Source of the DNA: Curtobacterium sp. L6-1 | Lineage (GTDB): Bacteria > Actinomycetota > Actinomycetes > Actinomycetales > Microbacteriaceae | NCBI RefSeq assembly: GCF_018885305.1 | Contig: NZ_CP076544.1 | Location: 558,001-622,000 of the forward strand | Reading direction: 5' to 3' | DNA length: 64,000 nucleotides | Shown here: positions 19,010 to 60,623 of the stretch, piece by piece | Layout of the letters: the number at the start of each line of letters is the position of its first letter | Numbering within the stretch: position 1 is the stretch's first letter | Made by a program: the position numbers and the translations under genes | Notes under the pieces: generated by a model | Databases searched by the model: none | What the model was told of the DNA's origin: nothing | What the model saw: the letters and a program-made list of their open reading frames with translations, nothing else

Positions 19010-19056
19010 ACGGACGGGAGGCCGCCCACCGGTCCGGTGGACGGCCTCCCGTCCGT
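19010..19056 (-). terminator. GACGGACGGGAGGCC hairpin, copy 2
   Basis: ACGGACGGGAGGCCG (19010-19024) pairs perfectly over 15 bp with CGGCCTCCCGTCCGT (19042-19056), and an inner CCACC/GGTGG extends it. It lies between the start of the leftward ABC exporter gene and the end of the leftward MFS gene, so it probably terminates the MFS transcript. No T tract follows. Same left arm as the other copies in this window. Confidence 0.7.
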
Positions 19057-31565: not shown

Positions 31566-31598
31566 TCCGCACCGCGCACGCGGTCCGCACGCGTCCAC

Positions 31599-31650
31599 GG
31601 GACGGACGGGAGGCCCGGTACCAGCTGGTACCGGGCCTCCTGTCCGTCCC
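31599..31650 (+). terminator. 52-bp palindromic terminator of the mtl operon (GACGGACGGGAGGCC copy 4)
   Basis: Positions 31599-31624 and 31625-31650 are reverse complements over all 26 positions but one, and that one can form a G-U pair in RNA; there is no loop spacer. The left arm begins GGGACGGACGGGAGGCCCGG, sharing its core with the hairpins near 12034, 19010 and 25019. It lies directly downstream of mtlD. Confidence 0.85.
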
Positions 31651-31782
31651 GGCCGCGGTCGGCGGGCGCGGTCGCGCGGTCCCACGAGGACGCCCGCCCG
31701 CTCCGGACACCGCCTCGCGCGAGCGCAGGCGTGGGTGCACCGGCGCCCGCGTGCAGCGTTGCCCGCGAGTACCGTCACCGGC

Positions 31783-55034: not shown

Positions 55035-55865
55035 ATGGTCAGCACCGACAACCCCCTGAACGACCCCGCCGTCGACCCGTTCGACGTGGCTCGCGACGCC
55101 GCAGCCGTCATCGCGTCCCGCTCCGGCATCGAACGGCACGACGTCGCCCTGACGCTCGGTTCCGGCTGGGGGAAGGCCGCCGACCTGCTCGGCGAGACCG
55201 TGTCCGAGATCCCGGCGTCCGACGTCCCCGGGTTCAGTGCCTCCGCCGTCCCCGGGCACTCCGGCACGGTGCGGTCCATCCGCCTCGAGGACGGTCGCCA
55301 CGCACTCGTGATCGGCGCCCGCACCCACTACTACGAGGGCCACGGCGTGCGTCGCGTCGTGCACAGCGTCCGCACCGCCGCGGCGACCGGTGCGTCGGTC
55401 ATGGTGCTCACGAACGGCGCCGGCGGCATCAAGGAGACCTGGACGCCGGGCACCCCGGTCCTCATCAGCGACCACATCAACCTGACGGCCGACAGCCCGC
55501 TCGAGGGCGCGACGTTCATCGACCTGACGGACCTGTACTCGGCCCGCCTCCGCGCGGTCGCGAAGACGGTCGACCCGTCCCTCGACGAGGGCGTCTACAC
55601 GCAGTTCCGCGGCCCGCACTACGAGACCCCGGCCGAGGTCCAGATGGCGAAGGCGATCGGCGGCCACATCGTCGGCATGTCCACCGCGCTCGAGGCCATC
55701 GCCGCCCGCCAGGCCGGGATGGAGGTGCTGGGCTTCTCGCTCATCACGAACCTCGCCGCCGGCATCCAGAAGACGCCGCTGTCCCACACCGAGGTGCTCG
55801 AGGCCGGCAAGCAGGCCGAGCCGGTCATCGCCGACCTCCTCGCCCGCGTGGTGGCGGCACTGTGA
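55035..55865 (+). CDS. punA: Purine nucleoside phosphorylase (trimeric type)
   Basis: Phosphorolyses inosine and guanosine, and their deoxy forms, to base plus ribose 1-phosphate. 276 residues. Motifs: LGSGWGKAADLL (phosphate loop), PGHSGTV, RTHYYEGH, LTNGAGGI, QFRGPHYETPAE and GMSTALEAIAAR with the purine-site region LITNLAAGI. The ATG is 6 nt after TACGAT, so it can be transcribed on its own as a leaderless mRNA. It overlaps the phosphomutase gene by 4 nt. Confidence 0.95.
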   Translation: MVSTDNPLNDPAVDPFDVARDAAAVIASRSGIERHDVALTLGSGWGKAADLLGETVSEIPASDVPGFSASAVPGHSGTVRSIRLEDGRHALVIGARTHYYEGHGVRRVVHSVRTAAATGASVMVLTNGAGGIKETWTPGTPVLISDHINLTADSPLEGATFIDLTDLYSARLRAVAKTVDPSLDEGVYTQFRGPHYETPAEVQMAKAIGGHIVGMSTALEAIAARQAGMEVLGFSLITNLAAGIQKTPLSHTEVLEAGKQAEPVIADLLARVVAAL

Positions 55866-57580
55866 CCCGGCACGACGGGGGAGCGAGCGACGGCGCGATC
55901 GCGGACGGCGACCTGGCAGACGGCGCGGTGTCCGAGCAGACCGCGGGCACCGATGTGCTCGTGACCGCCCGTGCCTGGGTCGAACAGGACCCGGACGCCG
56001 AGACCCGTGCCGAGCTCCAGCAGCTCATCGACGCCGGGGACACCGACGAACTCACCGCCCGCTTCGCCGGACGCCTGCAGTTCGGGACCGCGGGGCTCCG
56101 TGCCGAGCTCGGTGCCGGTCCGCTCCGGATGAACCGGGTCGTCGTCACGCAGGCCGCCGCCGGACTCGCACGGTTCCTCATCGACTCGGGGCGCGACCGC
56201 AGCGTCGTCATCGGGTACGACGGCCGCGTCAACTCCGACGTCTTCGCGCGGGACTCGGCCGAGGTCATGCGCGGGCTGGGCCTCGACGTCACGCTGCTGC
56301 CCGGTGCGCTGCCGACCCCGCTCGTCGCCTTCGCCGTGCGGCACCTCGGCGTCGGTGCGGGCGTCATGGTCACGGCGAGCCACAACCCGCCGCGGGACAA
56401 CGGCTACAAGGTGTACCTCGGCGGTGACGACGAGGGTTCGCAGATCGTGCCCCCGGTCGACGCCGAGATCGCGGCGGCCATCGACGTCGTCGCCGCCGGG
56501 GACGTCCGGTCGCTCGACCGGGCCACGGACTACACCGTCGCCGACCAGGCGCTCGTGCAGGCCTACGTGGACGCGACGGCCGCGACGGTGCCGGCCCCGG
56601 GCCTCCCGGCCGACGCACAGCCGTCCGTCGTCTACACGGCGATGCACGGGGTCGGGTGGGAGACCGCCCGCGCCGTCTTCGCCGCCGCCGGGTTCCGTGA
56701 GCCGGCCGTCGTCCCCGAGCAGATCGAGCCGGACGGCGCCTTCCCGACCGTGTCCTTCCCCAACCCGGAGGAGCCGGGCGCGATGGACCTGTCGATCGCC
56801 CGCGGCGTCGCGGTCGGCGCCGACCTGGTCATCGCCAACGACCCGGACGCCGACCGCCTGGCGCTCGCGATCCCGGACGGCGCCGGGTCCTTCCGACGGC
56901 TCTCCGGCAACGAGGTCGGGTGGCTGCTGGGGTGGCGCGCCGCTGCCCGCGCTGCCGCCGCCGGCACCACGGGCGTGCTCGCCGCGTCGATCGTCAGCTC
57001 GCCGGCGCTGTCCCGCGTGGCCGAGCAGTACGGGCTCGGGTACCGGGACACCCTGACCGGCTTCAAGTGGGTCTCGCGCGTACCCGACCTGCTGTTCGGG
57101 TACGAGGAGGCGCTCGGCTACCTCGTCGACCCGCAGGTCGTCCGCGACAAGGACGGCATCTCCGCGGCGCTCGAGCTGCTGTCCCTGGCCACCGAGCTCG
57201 CGGCCGACGGCAGGACCATCGCCGACCAGCTCGACGCGTTCGCCGAGCGGTTCGGGGCGTTCGCGTCCGGGCAGGTCGCCACGCGCGTCGACGACCTCGC
57301 GCGCATCGGGGAGATCATGGCGTCGCTGCGGTCGGCCGCGCCCACCGAGCTCGGTGGGGTGGCGGTGACGGCGACGACGGACTTCCTCGACGGTGTCGAG
57401 GGCTTCCCACCGTCGGACATCCTGCGCTTCGACCTGGACGGTGGCGCGCGCGTCATCGTCCGCCCGAGTGGCACCGAGCCCAAGGTGAAGGTCTACATCG
57501 ACACCGTCGCGGCCACGCCGGCCGAGGCGTCCGCGCTCGCCGACCGCCTGGCCGCCGCGGTGCGCCCGCTCGTCTCGTAG
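55862..57580 (+). CDS. Phospho-sugar mutase (PGM2/PmmB type), probable phosphopentomutase role
   Basis: 572 residues of the alpha-D-phosphohexomutase superfamily. The phosphoserine Ser173 lies in TASHNPPRDNGYKVY; the metal site is ANDPDADRLALA; the sugar-binding loop is GYEEALGYLV; the phosphate-binding loop is RPSGTEPKVKVY. The N-terminal 45 residues are an acidic extension. Length and DNGYKVY match PGM2/PmmB-type enzymes, which in other organisms can convert (deoxy)ribose 1-phosphate to the 5-phosphate. Overlap with the purine phosphorylase gene, and the absence of a DeoB-type gene here, make that role likely (inference). Confidence 0.9.
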   Translation: MTRHDGGASDGAIADGDLADGAVSEQTAGTDVLVTARAWVEQDPDAETRAELQQLIDAGDTDELTARFAGRLQFGTAGLRAELGAGPLRMNRVVVTQAAAGLARFLIDSGRDRSVVIGYDGRVNSDVFARDSAEVMRGLGLDVTLLPGALPTPLVAFAVRHLGVGAGVMVTASHNPPRDNGYKVYLGGDDEGSQIVPPVDAEIAAAIDVVAAGDVRSLDRATDYTVADQALVQAYVDATAATVPAPGLPADAQPSVVYTAMHGVGWETARAVFAAAGFREPAVVPEQIEPDGAFPTVSFPNPEEPGAMDLSIARGVAVGADLVIANDPDADRLALAIPDGAGSFRRLSGNEVGWLLGWRAAARAAAAGTTGVLAASIVSSPALSRVAEQYGLGYRDTLTGFKWVSRVPDLLFGYEEALGYLVDPQVVRDKDGISAALELLSLATELAADGRTIADQLDAFAERFGAFASGQVATRVDDLARIGEIMASLRSAAPTELGGVAVTATTDFLDGVEGFPPSDILRFDLDGGARVIVRPSGTEPKVKVYIDTVAATPAEASALADRLAAAVRPLVS

Positions 57581-57628: not shown

Positions 57629-57688
57629 GCGCCCCGCTCCGAACATCGCGCCCCGTTCCGACGGGGCGCGATGTTCGTTCGGGGGCGC
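57629..57688. repeat. Left flanking palindrome of the AbiEi/DUF559-like gene
   Basis: The core, CGAACATCGCGCCCCGT (57640-57656), TCCG loop, ACGGGGCGCGATGTTCG (57661-57677), is a perfect 17-bp stem. An outer GCGCCCC (57629-57635) pairs with GGGGCGC (about 57682-57688). Its core is the inverted copy of the palindrome at 58749-58786, differing only at one base pair. Just upstream (57580-57625) is a GGCGC/GCGGCCT short-repeat tract. Confidence 0.85.
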
Positions 57689-57791
57689 GGGGCAGGGCCG
57701 CTCGTCCTGCACCGCGGGACACCGCACACGAACTCTCCACAGCAGTCGGCTCGACGACCCACGGCGCCGCCGCCGCAACGATGCTCGTGAC

Positions 57792-58748
57792 ATGCATCTC
57801 GACGTCGTCTCGACCGGAGCGGAGCTCGATCCGGCCGCCGCCGTTCGACTGCGTCGCGCTGCGGAAGCCGGTTCGCTCGTCCGGGTCGCGCGTGGTGCGT
57901 TCACGGACCGGCAGGCCTGGGACGCCGCAGACGCGCGCGAGCGGCACCGCGCGTTGATCCGCGCAGTCATGCCCCGCGATCGGCAGGGGCTCGTCCTCTC
58001 ACACGCATCCGCCGTGGCGGTGCACGGTCTCCCGTGGATCGGGTCGTTCGGGGACCGCGTGGTCGTCACGGACCCGGGCCGTGATCGAGGACAGGTCAAA
58101 GCGTCGATCCAGCGTGTCGGCGGCAGGGGACGAAGCCTCGCGACGGTGTCGATCGACGGGCTGCGGGTGACCAGCCTGGCGGCGACCGCCGTCGACGTCG
58201 CGATCCGCGAGCACCCCTGGCGCGCGATCGCGGTTCTCGACGCCGCGCTGCGTCGAGGCGTGACCAGGACGGAGCTCGGCGCCGAACTCGAGGGACGACG
58301 CATGCGCAACCCACGCGTCGTCCGTGCGCTCGTCCGATCCACTGACGGTGATGCGGAATCCGTCGGTGAGAGCATCACCCGCTGGGGAGCCGTCGTGCTC
58401 GGAGCGCCGCCGTTGGCGTTGCAGCACGAGTTCCGGCACGAGGACGGAACGGTCGATCGCGTGGACCTGTGGCAGCCCGACCTCGGGGTCGTCATCGAGT
58501 TCGACGGGCTCGTGAAGTACTCCGACCCGGCCATGCAGCGCGGGCGGGCGCCGCACGAGATCGTGGTCGAGGAGAAGCGCCGCGAGGACCGACTCCGCCG
58601 CCACCGCGACGTCACCGGAGTCGGACGGGCGACCTGGCGAGAGGCGATGCCGGGCGGGCTGCTCCCACGGATCCTGCTCGACGCGGGCCTCCCGCTCGGC
58701 GACCGGTGGCCCGCCGCCTGGCGCGCGGCTGCCATTCGCGCCCTGTAA
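57792..58748 (+). CDS. AbiEi/DUF559-like protein with a C-terminal nuclease-like domain
   Basis: 318 residues. The N-terminal part resembles AbiEi-type antitoxin/transcription factor proteins of actinobacteria: RRAAEAGSLVRVARGAF as a winged-helix stretch, then SHASAVAVHGLPW. The C-terminal part has a restriction-endonuclease-like (PD-(D/E)XK, DUF559) pattern: DRVDLWQPDLGVVIEFDG with Asp and Glu, then VVEEKRREDRLR with Glu-x-Lys. Proteins of this build are commonly annotated as type IV toxin-antitoxin AbiEi domain proteins, but no AbiEii toxin gene is adjacent and the function is unknown. No binding site is seen before the ATG. Codon use is slightly less GC-biased (CGATCC, GTTCTC, TTGGCG codons) than its neighbours. 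It is flanked by inverted 38-bp palindromes. Confidence 0.78.
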   Translation: MHLDVVSTGAELDPAAAVRLRRAAEAGSLVRVARGAFTDRQAWDAADARERHRALIRAVMPRDRQGLVLSHASAVAVHGLPWIGSFGDRVVVTDPGRDRGQVKASIQRVGGRGRSLATVSIDGLRVTSLAATAVDVAIREHPWRAIAVLDAALRRGVTRTELGAELEGRRMRNPRVVRALVRSTDGDAESVGESITRWGAVVLGAPPLALQHEFRHEDGTVDRVDLWQPDLGVVIEFDGLVKYSDPAMQRGRAPHEIVVEEKRREDRLRRHRDVTGVGRATWREAMPGGLLPRILLDAGLPLGDRWPAAWRAAAIRAL

Positions 58749-58786
58749 CGCACATCGCGCCCCGTCGGAACGGGGCGCGATGTGCG
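58749..58786. repeat. Right flanking palindrome of the AbiEi/DUF559-like gene
   Basis: CGCACATCGCGCCCCGT (58749-58765), loop CGGA, ACGGGGCGCGATGTGCG (58770-58786): a perfect 17-bp stem that begins at the base after the stop codon. The loop CGGA is the reverse complement of the TCCG loop at 57657, so the two palindromes form a 38-bp inverted repeat around the gene. A third partial copy (GCGGGGCGCGATGCGCGG) follows at about 58789-58805. It can also act as a terminator. Confidence 0.88.
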
Positions 58787-58850
58787 TAGCGGGGCGCGAT
58801 GCGCGGGCTCGGCGGGGCGCGGCGAGAGGCGGCGAGAGCGGCGGGGCGCG

Positions 58851-60623
58851 CTACGCGAGCTCGAGCAGGACGTGGCCGGAGGAGACCGTCTGGCCGACGG
58901 GGGCGTTCAGCCCGGTGACGACGCCGTCCTTGTGCGCCTGGACGGGCTGCTCCATCTTCATGGCCTCGAGGACGACGAGCAGGTCGCCCTTCACCACGGT
59001 GTCACCCTCGGCGACCGCGAGCTTCACCACGGTGGCCTGCATCGGCGACGCCACCGACGAGCCCGAGGCCGCACGCCCGCCCTTGACCGCGGAGGAGCGG
59101 CGCTTCGGGGGAGCGGAGGGCCCGGCCGGACGACGGGCACCGGCGGAGCCGCCGACGATCGACGGCATGGTGACCTCGATGCGCTTGCCCTGCACCTCGA
59201 CCACGACGCTGTCGCGCTCGGCGGGGACGGGGAGCTCCTCCGGGGAACCGCTCCACGCGGGGATGTCGTTGTCGAAGTCGGTCTCGATCCACTGCGTGTA
59301 GACGGAGAACGGGGTGGCGTCGTCGGTCGCGAACGCCGGGTCGGCGACCACGGCACGGTGGAACGGGATGACGGTCGGCAGACCGGCGACCTCGAACTCG
59401 GCGAGGGCGCGGCGGGAGCGCTCGAGCGCCTCGGCGCGAGTGGCACCGGTCACGATGAGCTTGGCGAGCATCGAGTCGAACGAGCCGGAGACGACGTCGC
59501 CGGAGACCACGCCGGAGTCGACGCGGACACCGGGGCCGGACGGCGCGTTGAACACGTGCACGGGGCCCGGTGCGGGGAAGAAGTTGCGGCCCGGGTCCTC
59601 GCCGTTGATGCGGAACTCGAACGAGTGGCCGCGCGGGGTCGGGTCCTCGTAGTCGAGCACGCCGCCCTCGGCCAGTCGGAACTGCTCGCGCACCAGGTCG
59701 ATGCCGGTGACCTCCTCGGAGACGCAGTGCTCGACCTGCAGGCGGGTGTTCACCTCGAGGAACGACACCGTTCCGTCGGCGCCGATGAGGAACTCGCACG
59801 TGCCCGCACCGACGTAGCCGACCTCGCGCAGGATCGCCTTCGACGCCGAGTACAGCCGCTCGGTCTGCGCGTCGGTCAGGTAGGGCGCGGGGGCCTCCTC
59901 GACGAGCTTCTGGTGGCGACGCTGCAGCGAGCAGTCGCGCGTGGACACGACGACGACGTTGCCGTGCACGTCGGCGAGGCACTGGGTCTCGACGTGGCGC
60001 GGCTTGTCGAGGTACTTCTCGACGAAGCACTCGCCGCGGCCGAAGGCTGCGATGGCCTCGCGCGTCGCAGACTCGAACTGGGACTCGATCTCGTCGCGGG
60101 TGCGGGCGACCTTGAGCCCGCGGCCACCGCCACCGAACGCGGCCTTGATCGCGACCGGCAGGCCGACCTCGTCGGCGAAGGCGACGACCTCGGACACGTC
60201 CTGAACGGGCTCGATGGTGCCCGGGGCGAGCGGCGCCCCGACGGCCTCGGCCACGTGACGGGCGGACACCTTGTCGCCAAGCCGCTCGATCGATTCCGGG
60301 GACGGCCCGATCCAGGTCAGCCCGGCGTCGATGACGGCGCGGGCGAAGTCGGCGTTCTCGGCGAGGAAGCCGTAGCCCGGGTGCACGGCGTCGGCACCGG
60401 AGCGGCGAGCGACCGAGATGATCTTCTCGATGACCAGGTAGGTGTCGGCGCTCGTGGTGCCGTTCAGCGCGTACGCCTCGTCGGCGAGGCGTGCGTGCAG
60501 GGCGTCACGGTCCTGGTCGGCGTAGACCGCGACCGAGGCCTTGCCCGCGTCGCGAGCCGCGCGGATGATGCGGACGGCGATCTCGCCACGGTTCGCGATG
60601 AGGACCTTGCTGATGCGGGGCAT
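58851..60623 (-). CDS. accA3: Acyl-CoA carboxylase alpha subunit (biotin carboxylase plus BCCP)
   Basis: 590 residues. The biotin carboxylase part (1-450) has [13 protein letters not shown], the ATP loop [26 protein letters not shown], and catalytic [12 protein letters not shown]. An Ala/Pro/Lys-rich linker (about 480-520) leads to the biotinyl domain with the biotinylated Lys in EAMKMEQP. This two-in-one subunit is typical of actinobacteria and partners separate beta subunits, not in the window, to make malonyl-CoA or other acyl-CoAs. The ATG is 8 nt downstream of TACGCT (leaderless pattern). Confidence 0.95.

Follow-up and report, generated by a model that had tools for sequence, protein, structure and literature searches.

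A 318-aa gene (57792-58748, forward strand) of the 64-kb window, i.e. the whole stretch of DNA analyzed here, is enclosed by two 60-bp palindromic units, and our main reading is that its protein recognises its own palindrome and also spreads it. We put the probability of this full statement at roughly 0.6. Recognition taken alone is very likely, since matched flanks, co-inheritance of palindrome class and protein, a geometry that recurs while the sequence changes, and class-linked dispersal of the palindromes all point to it; mobilisation is proposed less firmly. Binding of the protein to the palindrome, DNA cleavage and protein-caused spreading are what we infer from these sequence comparisons.

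According to this reading the protein, with its AbiEi-type winged helix and DUF559-like domain, would be a sequence-specific DNA-binding, nuclease-like protein whose cognate site is a palindrome of 60-70 bp flanking the gene on both sides, the half-site often occurring twice per arm, 19 nt apart, and giving four sites per palindrome. It would act in trans on palindromes of its own class, multiplying them at intergenic sites much as a RAYT does for REPs, and the gene together with its two palindromes would pass between species, displacing other alleles at the same chromosomal place.

The upstream unit spans 57629-57688, with outer arms at 57629-57636 and 57681-57688 and an inner hairpin, CGAACATCGCGCCCCGT-TCCG-ACGGGGCGCGATGTTCG, at 57640-57677; the downstream unit, in inverted orientation, spans 58738-58797, with the inner hairpin CGCACATCGCGCCCCGT-CGGA-ACGGGGCGCGATGTGCG at 58749-58786. 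The gene's last codons and its stop fall within the left arm of the latter. Direct reading confirmed the open reading frame and the description given in the earlier note of perfect 17-bp stems, loops that are reverse complements of each other and two cores one base pair apart. The 38-bp palindromes described there are indeed present, but as cores: comparison of 16 copies in the own genome puts the real unit at 60 bp, because outer arms GCGCCCCG...GGGGCGC extend the palindrome beyond a short mismatch, and what was taken for a partial third copy belongs to the downstream unit as its right outer arm. The own-genome consensus reads GCGCCCCG-nnnCG-nACAwCGCGCCCCGT-4-ACGGGGCGCGwTGTnCG-nnn-GGGGCGC. 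Chance is excluded as the origin of the palindromes because within the window the exact 14-mer ACATCGCGCCCCGT is confined to their four arms, because no more than five hairpins in the 64 kb score ≥14 and both palindromes are among these, and because the similarity between the two flanks of the gene (330 bp upstream against 330 bp downstream) scores 44.5, whereas 33 other genes of this one window average 12.3 and reach at most 16.5.

The window protein matched AbiEi in PADLOC (1.8e-8, residues 17-175), an N-terminal winged helix, while Pfam AbiEi_4 remained below cut-off (it matches 6 of 31 relatives at E<=0.01), NCBIfam gave no match and Pfam DUF559 (PF04480) gave none either. No transposase was detected in it by Pfam, PADLOC or NCBIfam, the AbiEi match being the sole supported one. 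The former label "AbiEi/DUF559-like" has weak matches behind its AbiEi half and is not borne out by Pfam for the other. DUF559 does exceed the Pfam cut-off in four distant homologues (G250, G252, G286 and G308), in the same ORF and frame and overlapping the aligned part. The residues invariant in 31 aligned relatives are S190, G192-E193-S194, Q211, D225, E236, D238-G239, K242-Y243, E261-K262, R264-E265-D266 and R279; the C-terminal motif among them, D225, E236-F-D238-G239-x2-K242, resembles the DUF559/Vsr motif D..E-x-D-G-x-x-H, with K in place of the H in this group. In hhalign the motif was aligned, weakly (probability 5%, P 0.007), with three stand-alone DUF559 proteins, taken from five DUF559 loci of which the other two lacked the motif sought. 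A nuclease activity of this C-terminal DUF559/Vsr-like domain is therefore suggested as a prediction. By tblastn the protein was found in 1 of 72,556 plasmid records (56% covered) and in 0 of 50,697 phages, searches which diverged homologues might escape, and this near-absence from plasmids and phages fits a resident helper.

The gene is a chromosomal resident. Homologues occur in 64 of 66 genomes of the genus, and in 63 of the 66 the gene or its remains lies beside pmm (phosphoglucomutase/phosphomannomutase; 55862-57580, forward strand in the window); acc (biotin carboxylase/BCCP; 58851-60623, reverse strand) is on the opposite side in 60 of those 63, the exceptions being G042, G043 and G023. 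Both borders were identified by Pfam and by conserved adjacency. Beside pmm the gene is missing in G040 and G001, and in G010 the contig ends there; the gap of G040 retains one palindrome and some sequence after it, and is read as a probable deletion scar. Broken or truncated copies were found in G009, G017, G030, G038 and G045, four of which keep both palindromes. In Microbacteriaceae bacterium PS02332 a protein 82% identical is encoded at the same locus, with a unit of class C1 (see below) upstream and, directly behind the gene, a second C1 unit that is imperfect.

Two candidate descriptions were rejected. A mobile single-gene transposon was ruled out by the shared locus in 63 of 66 genomes and by own-genome paralogues that are only 38 and 40% identical; insertion sequences differ likewise, no near-identical gene copies being present at other loci here. 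A toxin-antitoxin operon was ruled out as no partner was present among the four neighbours scanned with Pfam (PNP, PGM/PMM, biotin carboxylase and Maf), in particular no AbiEii (DUF1814) toxin, and the addiction role suggested earlier finds no support in these neighbours. The mobile cassette proposed in the earlier note survives in part: gene and palindromes are exchanged as a cassette, as described next, but this cassette does not hop about the genome, since 63 of 66 genomes keep the gene, or what is left of it, at one locus.

At least six alleles, divergent from one another, occur at the pmm locus, and every one of them goes with a palindrome class of its own. The six classes of the genus, told apart by inspection and labels, carry GCGCCCC, AGCACC, CACCGGTG, GCACAAC, GAACCACG or GTGTTC; the labels are hand-made motifs, and C4 pools several subtypes. 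The same class is found on both flanks in 59 of 63 loci and mixed classes in none, a count in which L147 and L148 (C4 on both sides) and the second palindromes of L137, L146 and L153 were settled by inspection; a palindrome on one side was seen at L039 and L145, and at L124 and L128 none was found. Relatives thus carry flanking palindromes, contrary to the possibility raised beforehand that every close relative would have the gene without them.

Placed on a protein tree built from 56 loci, the seven labels (the six classes and "none") are explained by 6 changes, the fewest possible, and each label found in two or more rows forms one side of a branch (SH-aLRT 98-100). In the pmm tree of the same size they need 25 changes, against a shuffled mean of 32.1, so the labels are partly clustered there too; resolution in that tree is weak, with stars on 15 of its 53 inner branches, but these starred branches by themselves require at least 5, 6, 3, 6 and 3 changes for C1, C4, C2, C3 and C5, respectively. 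Both are quick trees (LG+G4) excluding 7 of the 63 proteins as broken, truncated or misread in frame (L051, L129, L145, L149, L150, L152 and L153), and pmm is represented in its rows by no more than the portion that lies on the fetched stretch. Since class is exact on the protein tree and poor on the pmm tree, gene and palindromes have been exchanged as one cassette, and the view that the palindromes belong to the gene and behave like its cognate sites gains from the match of class to protein clade. The window genome is itself an instance: by pmm, its closest genomes carry C4 and C3 alleles (G044 at 93%), yet its AbiEi-like (abi) protein falls among those of the C1 group. When G053 is set against G052 and G002 against G006, identity per 100 bp is 91-98% in the pmm and acc ends as far as the stops, and everything between them differs; in the other pairs shown the ends are 76-100% identical per 100 bp, short end windows aside.

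Such exchange is also what the main rival would produce. A homing or defence cassette, in which the nuclease cuts incoming DNA or a locus bearing a different allele, and gene and palindromes enter through repair off the pmm and acc flanks of the donor, the palindromes mainly marking or protecting self with dispersal as a secondary matter, is unlikely as the whole account, though it deserves more weight than the other alternatives considered here. Vsr-like (EDxHD) homing endonucleases, e.g. I-Bth0305I, combine a Vsr/DUF559-type nuclease with invasion of a fixed locus, which would explain the swapping of divergent alleles at one place; the pattern of exchange is compatible with this, and cleavage of the cognate site is only predicted. 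Homing genes pass through a cycle of gain, decay and loss, to which the broken or truncated copies and the absences in G040 and G001 are similar, and the in-place class changes at orthologous sites with single palindromes (below) would agree as well. However, a homing gene is expected to interrupt its own target, whereas no interrupted target site was seen here and the cognate palindromes stand intact on both sides of the gene; moreover, the class-specific copies located away from abi genes are left unexplained. Homing-like or defence-driven allele replacement may nonetheless act in addition to recognition and spreading of the palindrome by the protein.

Matching of the two flanks extends beyond the class labels. 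At the pmm locus (site 1), 54 of 63 loci exceed the control maximum, with a median of 37, as do 12 of 20 hand-chosen other abi loci of the genus, the remaining 8 not being above it. When flanks of different abi genes within one genome were compared, cross scores of 11.5-21.5 were obtained (17 of 20 not above 16.5, three above), suggesting that different abi genes of one genome mostly carry different palindromes. Homologues were found in 96 of 150 Microbacteriaceae genomes, representing 62 of 85 genera, and in genera other than that of the window 17 of 26 loci exceed the control maximum and 9 do not; one of 27 loci, L239, was dropped from this count (contig end, overlapping flanks, score 284), and L220 lies on a short contig. 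The family scores have a median of 21.5 vs 11 for 650 mismatched pairs, 21 of which are above 16.5 (maximum 59; 9 involve L230); 15 of the 26 loci score highest with the downstream flank of their own, and 0 of 20,000 permuted pairings reached the observed sum. In the Actinomycetota sample homologues at 1e-20 are present in 30 of 296 genomes, and 19 of 29 loci exceed 16.5 while 10 do not, with flanks of 350 bp here against 330 bp in the control, L242 and L245 belonging to the same family, and the score of L248 being due to a repeat without clear palindromic form.

Outside the genus the palindrome sequences are new and their 19-nt internal spacing is often kept. When direct repeats were sought within the arms of 33 hand-chosen palindromes 55-76 bp long, the best one had a lag of 19 nt in 19 of them, including 14 of the 16 with p<=0.1; the C3 matches listed span, by eye, 60 bp though 48-72 was allowed. 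The position relative to the gene was measured with 10 of the 63 loci left out: from the end of the upstream unit to the start codon the median is 102 bp (68-171, n=53), and from the stop to the start of the downstream unit 5 bp (maximum 41, n=51).

Three loci of larger-genome actinobacteria with several homologues (L262, L265 and L266; family code f6, genus code g91) also have matched palindromes, the four g91 genomes holding 3-6 homologues each. The palindrome of L265 (GAGCAGACGCGAAAGCCCCC) may resemble an intergenic repeat of mycobacteria.

Copies of the unit are also dispersed through genomes away from the gene. The own genome, a single 3.40-Mb contig, has 16 units, two at the gene and 14 at 11 other sites, as determined by pattern searches and inspection; imperfect copies include L006, L026 and L027, and one extra pattern match, L019, is not of the 60-bp-unit family. 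Of these units, 14 lie away from the three AbiEi-like genes found in this genome, and it is thus not so that the palindromes always flank such genes. This distribution, together with stable GC hairpins near gene ends, is what ordinary strong hairpin terminators standing at gene ends by chance would give, and the earlier note had indeed named wide occurrence after unrelated genes as the mark of a plain terminator family. The wide occurrence was found, but as a full account terminators are contradicted by the match of class to protein clade, and we regard them as very improbable: class differs between abi genes of one genome, the geometry recurs, and, in contrast to intrinsic terminators, no T-run follows the hairpins in the window on direct reading. 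The palindromes may of course serve as transcription terminators in addition.

Regarding the numbers of copies, class by class, genomes that carry a class at the locus have more of it elsewhere. C1 copies have a median of 6.5 in 18 carriers vs 1.0 in 48 others (p 6e-8), C3 copies 16 in 8 carriers vs 0 in 58 others (p 1e-7) and C2 copies 2 in 11 carriers vs 0 in 55 others; with the two flanking copies of the carriers subtracted, p is 3e-5 for C1, 2e-7 for C3 and 0.08, not significant, for C2, all these p-values overstating the significance because related genomes are not independent. At the low end, the only two C1-pattern matches of G002, and the only two C2-pattern matches of G003, G050, G055 and G065, are those flanking the gene. 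At the other end there are genomes with many copies of a class absent from their own locus: C1 in G019 (15), G033 (7) and G037 (7), C2 in G051 (10), and C3 in G002 (22), G014 (27), G011 (14), G059 (8) and G044 (7). By kinship in the pmm tree, G002 and G014, which now have C1, are near C3 genomes, and G011 and G044, now with C4, are near G020, as if the C3 copies of these four genomes were relics of an earlier allele; such an explanation is lacking for C1 in G019, G033 and G037, C2 in G051 and C3 in G059.

Solo sites of the own genome were compared with five kin; among the matches listed 8 of 11 sites are covered, by 1 to 5 kin each, with no kin locus for L006, L023 and L028. Close species differ from one another in whether they have a given unit. 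The unit of L024 is missing in G040, where 2 bp stand against 84 bp of own sequence, and G044 has a C1-like hairpin at this place; that of L031 is missing in G035 and present in the four other kin. No target-site duplication was seen at the empty sites compared. The gap L020 holds a C1-type palindrome in the own genome, the CACAACAGGAACC type of C4 in G035, G040 and G044, and C3 in G020 and G011. Similarly, 4 of 10 C3 sites of G007 could be aligned in G006, one having C3 and three other hairpins (two of them C2) with none empty, in a small sample picked for lacking a C3 match and with the other six regions, placed by extrapolated synteny, unaligned. Such a change of class at orthologous sites suggests replacement at existing sites or insertion hotspots.

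Two observations were made beside these comparisons. In G024 (L157, G024:C8) an island of 3.3 kb, made up of two ORFs besides a gene resembling cytosine methyltransferases, occupies the gap which in the closely related G025 holds a solo palindrome (L156, G025:C1:1125954), the flanks being 98% identical; a comparison of G025 with G024 for insertion is uninformative because the gap is filled by the island. L309 (G006:C35) and L188 (G044) carry palindromes of other classes, GAGCAGAAATGGTCGGGT and GTCACGAAACGTCGCTCC, respectively, whose short cores were looked for among the abi flanks of the genus and family sets and not found, which suggests unseen partners or lost alleles.

The arrangement of the solo sites bears on a purely regulatory account, in which an AbiEi-like repressor uses the palindromes as operators, perhaps with a loop of the gene between the two sites, and the solos are a regulon or noise. 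The AbiE type IV toxin-antitoxin system has an apparently related winged-helix domain, and the promoter of AbiEi contains long inverted repeats (23+3+23 bp) to which this protein binds (PMC3985639); a repressor would, in addition, need matched, coevolving sites. Nevertheless, autoregulation alone is improbable, more so than homing: a second full palindrome follows right after the stop. Besides, by our gene calls the 11 solo sites are 6 convergent gaps, 4 tandem and 1 divergent, L028 being ambiguous because an ORF call overlaps the unit, so that few solos lie at shared promoters; the differences in solos between close species also speak against it. From AbiE the gene is set apart by the lack of an AbiEii next door, the second palindrome downstream of it, the dispersed copies and other C-terminal motifs.

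Recognition and spreading of the palindrome by the protein would be closest in its working to the REP/REPIN-RAYT systems, presented in PMC3116915 and PMC3733652 as a resident gene with flanking palindromes dispersed in the same genome, a class-specific partnership and proposed coevolution, and as the best-studied protein partner of extragenic palindromes. Here, too, the gene is flanked by palindromes which are dispersed through its own genome, and likewise in the genus. The likeness is one of working and not of membership, because the proteins are unrelated: RAYTs are IS200-like tyrosine transposases, whereas here a winged helix of AbiEi type is joined to a DUF559-like domain, and the unit has 60-70 bp, often four half-sites and no GTAG tag. 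A further difference lies in the frequent allele swapping at one locus, the RAYT phylogeny being reported as largely congruent with species relationships (PMC3116915). TIRtrons (TIRYT), as described in PMC3733652, are genes flanked by long terminal inverted repeats, some forming repeat families; the flanking repeats are alike, but those proteins are tyrosine transposases, and here each flank is a complete palindrome. The gene-palindrome system looks like an undescribed actinobacterial counterpart of REP/RAYT; among the matches listed in the open-licence literature, none was seen that connects dispersed palindromes with genes of the AbiEi or DUF559 type.

A wider version, in which selfish palindrome systems would exist across the phylum, the nuclease, which has no kinship to any transposase, copying its cognate four-site palindrome around the genome, replacing other classes where palindromes already stand and driving replacement of rival alleles at the home locus, with many Actinomycetota repeats as its products, is put forward tentatively, at somewhat less than even odds. 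If it were true, many lineage-specific palindromic repeats of Actinomycetota would be products of a winged-helix/DUF559-like nuclease. Independently of it, many lineage-specific palindrome families seem to be linked with a protein family other than that of the RAYTs, a candidate cause of such repeats. The alleles also provide a natural series of protein/site pairs for the study of DNA recognition, and they illustrate clearly how one place in the chromosome can have its allele replaced again and again.

The two AbiEi-like paralogues of the own genome lie at G000:C1:519046-519864 (L179) and 3180471-3181304 (L180), with weaker flank pairs (scores 17 and 25), and L179 shares the palindrome core CTCAGCGAC with a second abi locus of relatives, e.g. 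L162, L163, L169 and L170. Finally, a second hairpin family with GACGGGAGGC...GCCTCCCGTC-type arms, distinct from the 60-bp units, was seen at gene ends in the window (19010-19056 and 31598-31651), at L030 of the own genome and at L194, L196, L198 and L210 of kin; these hairpins are possibly ordinary terminators.
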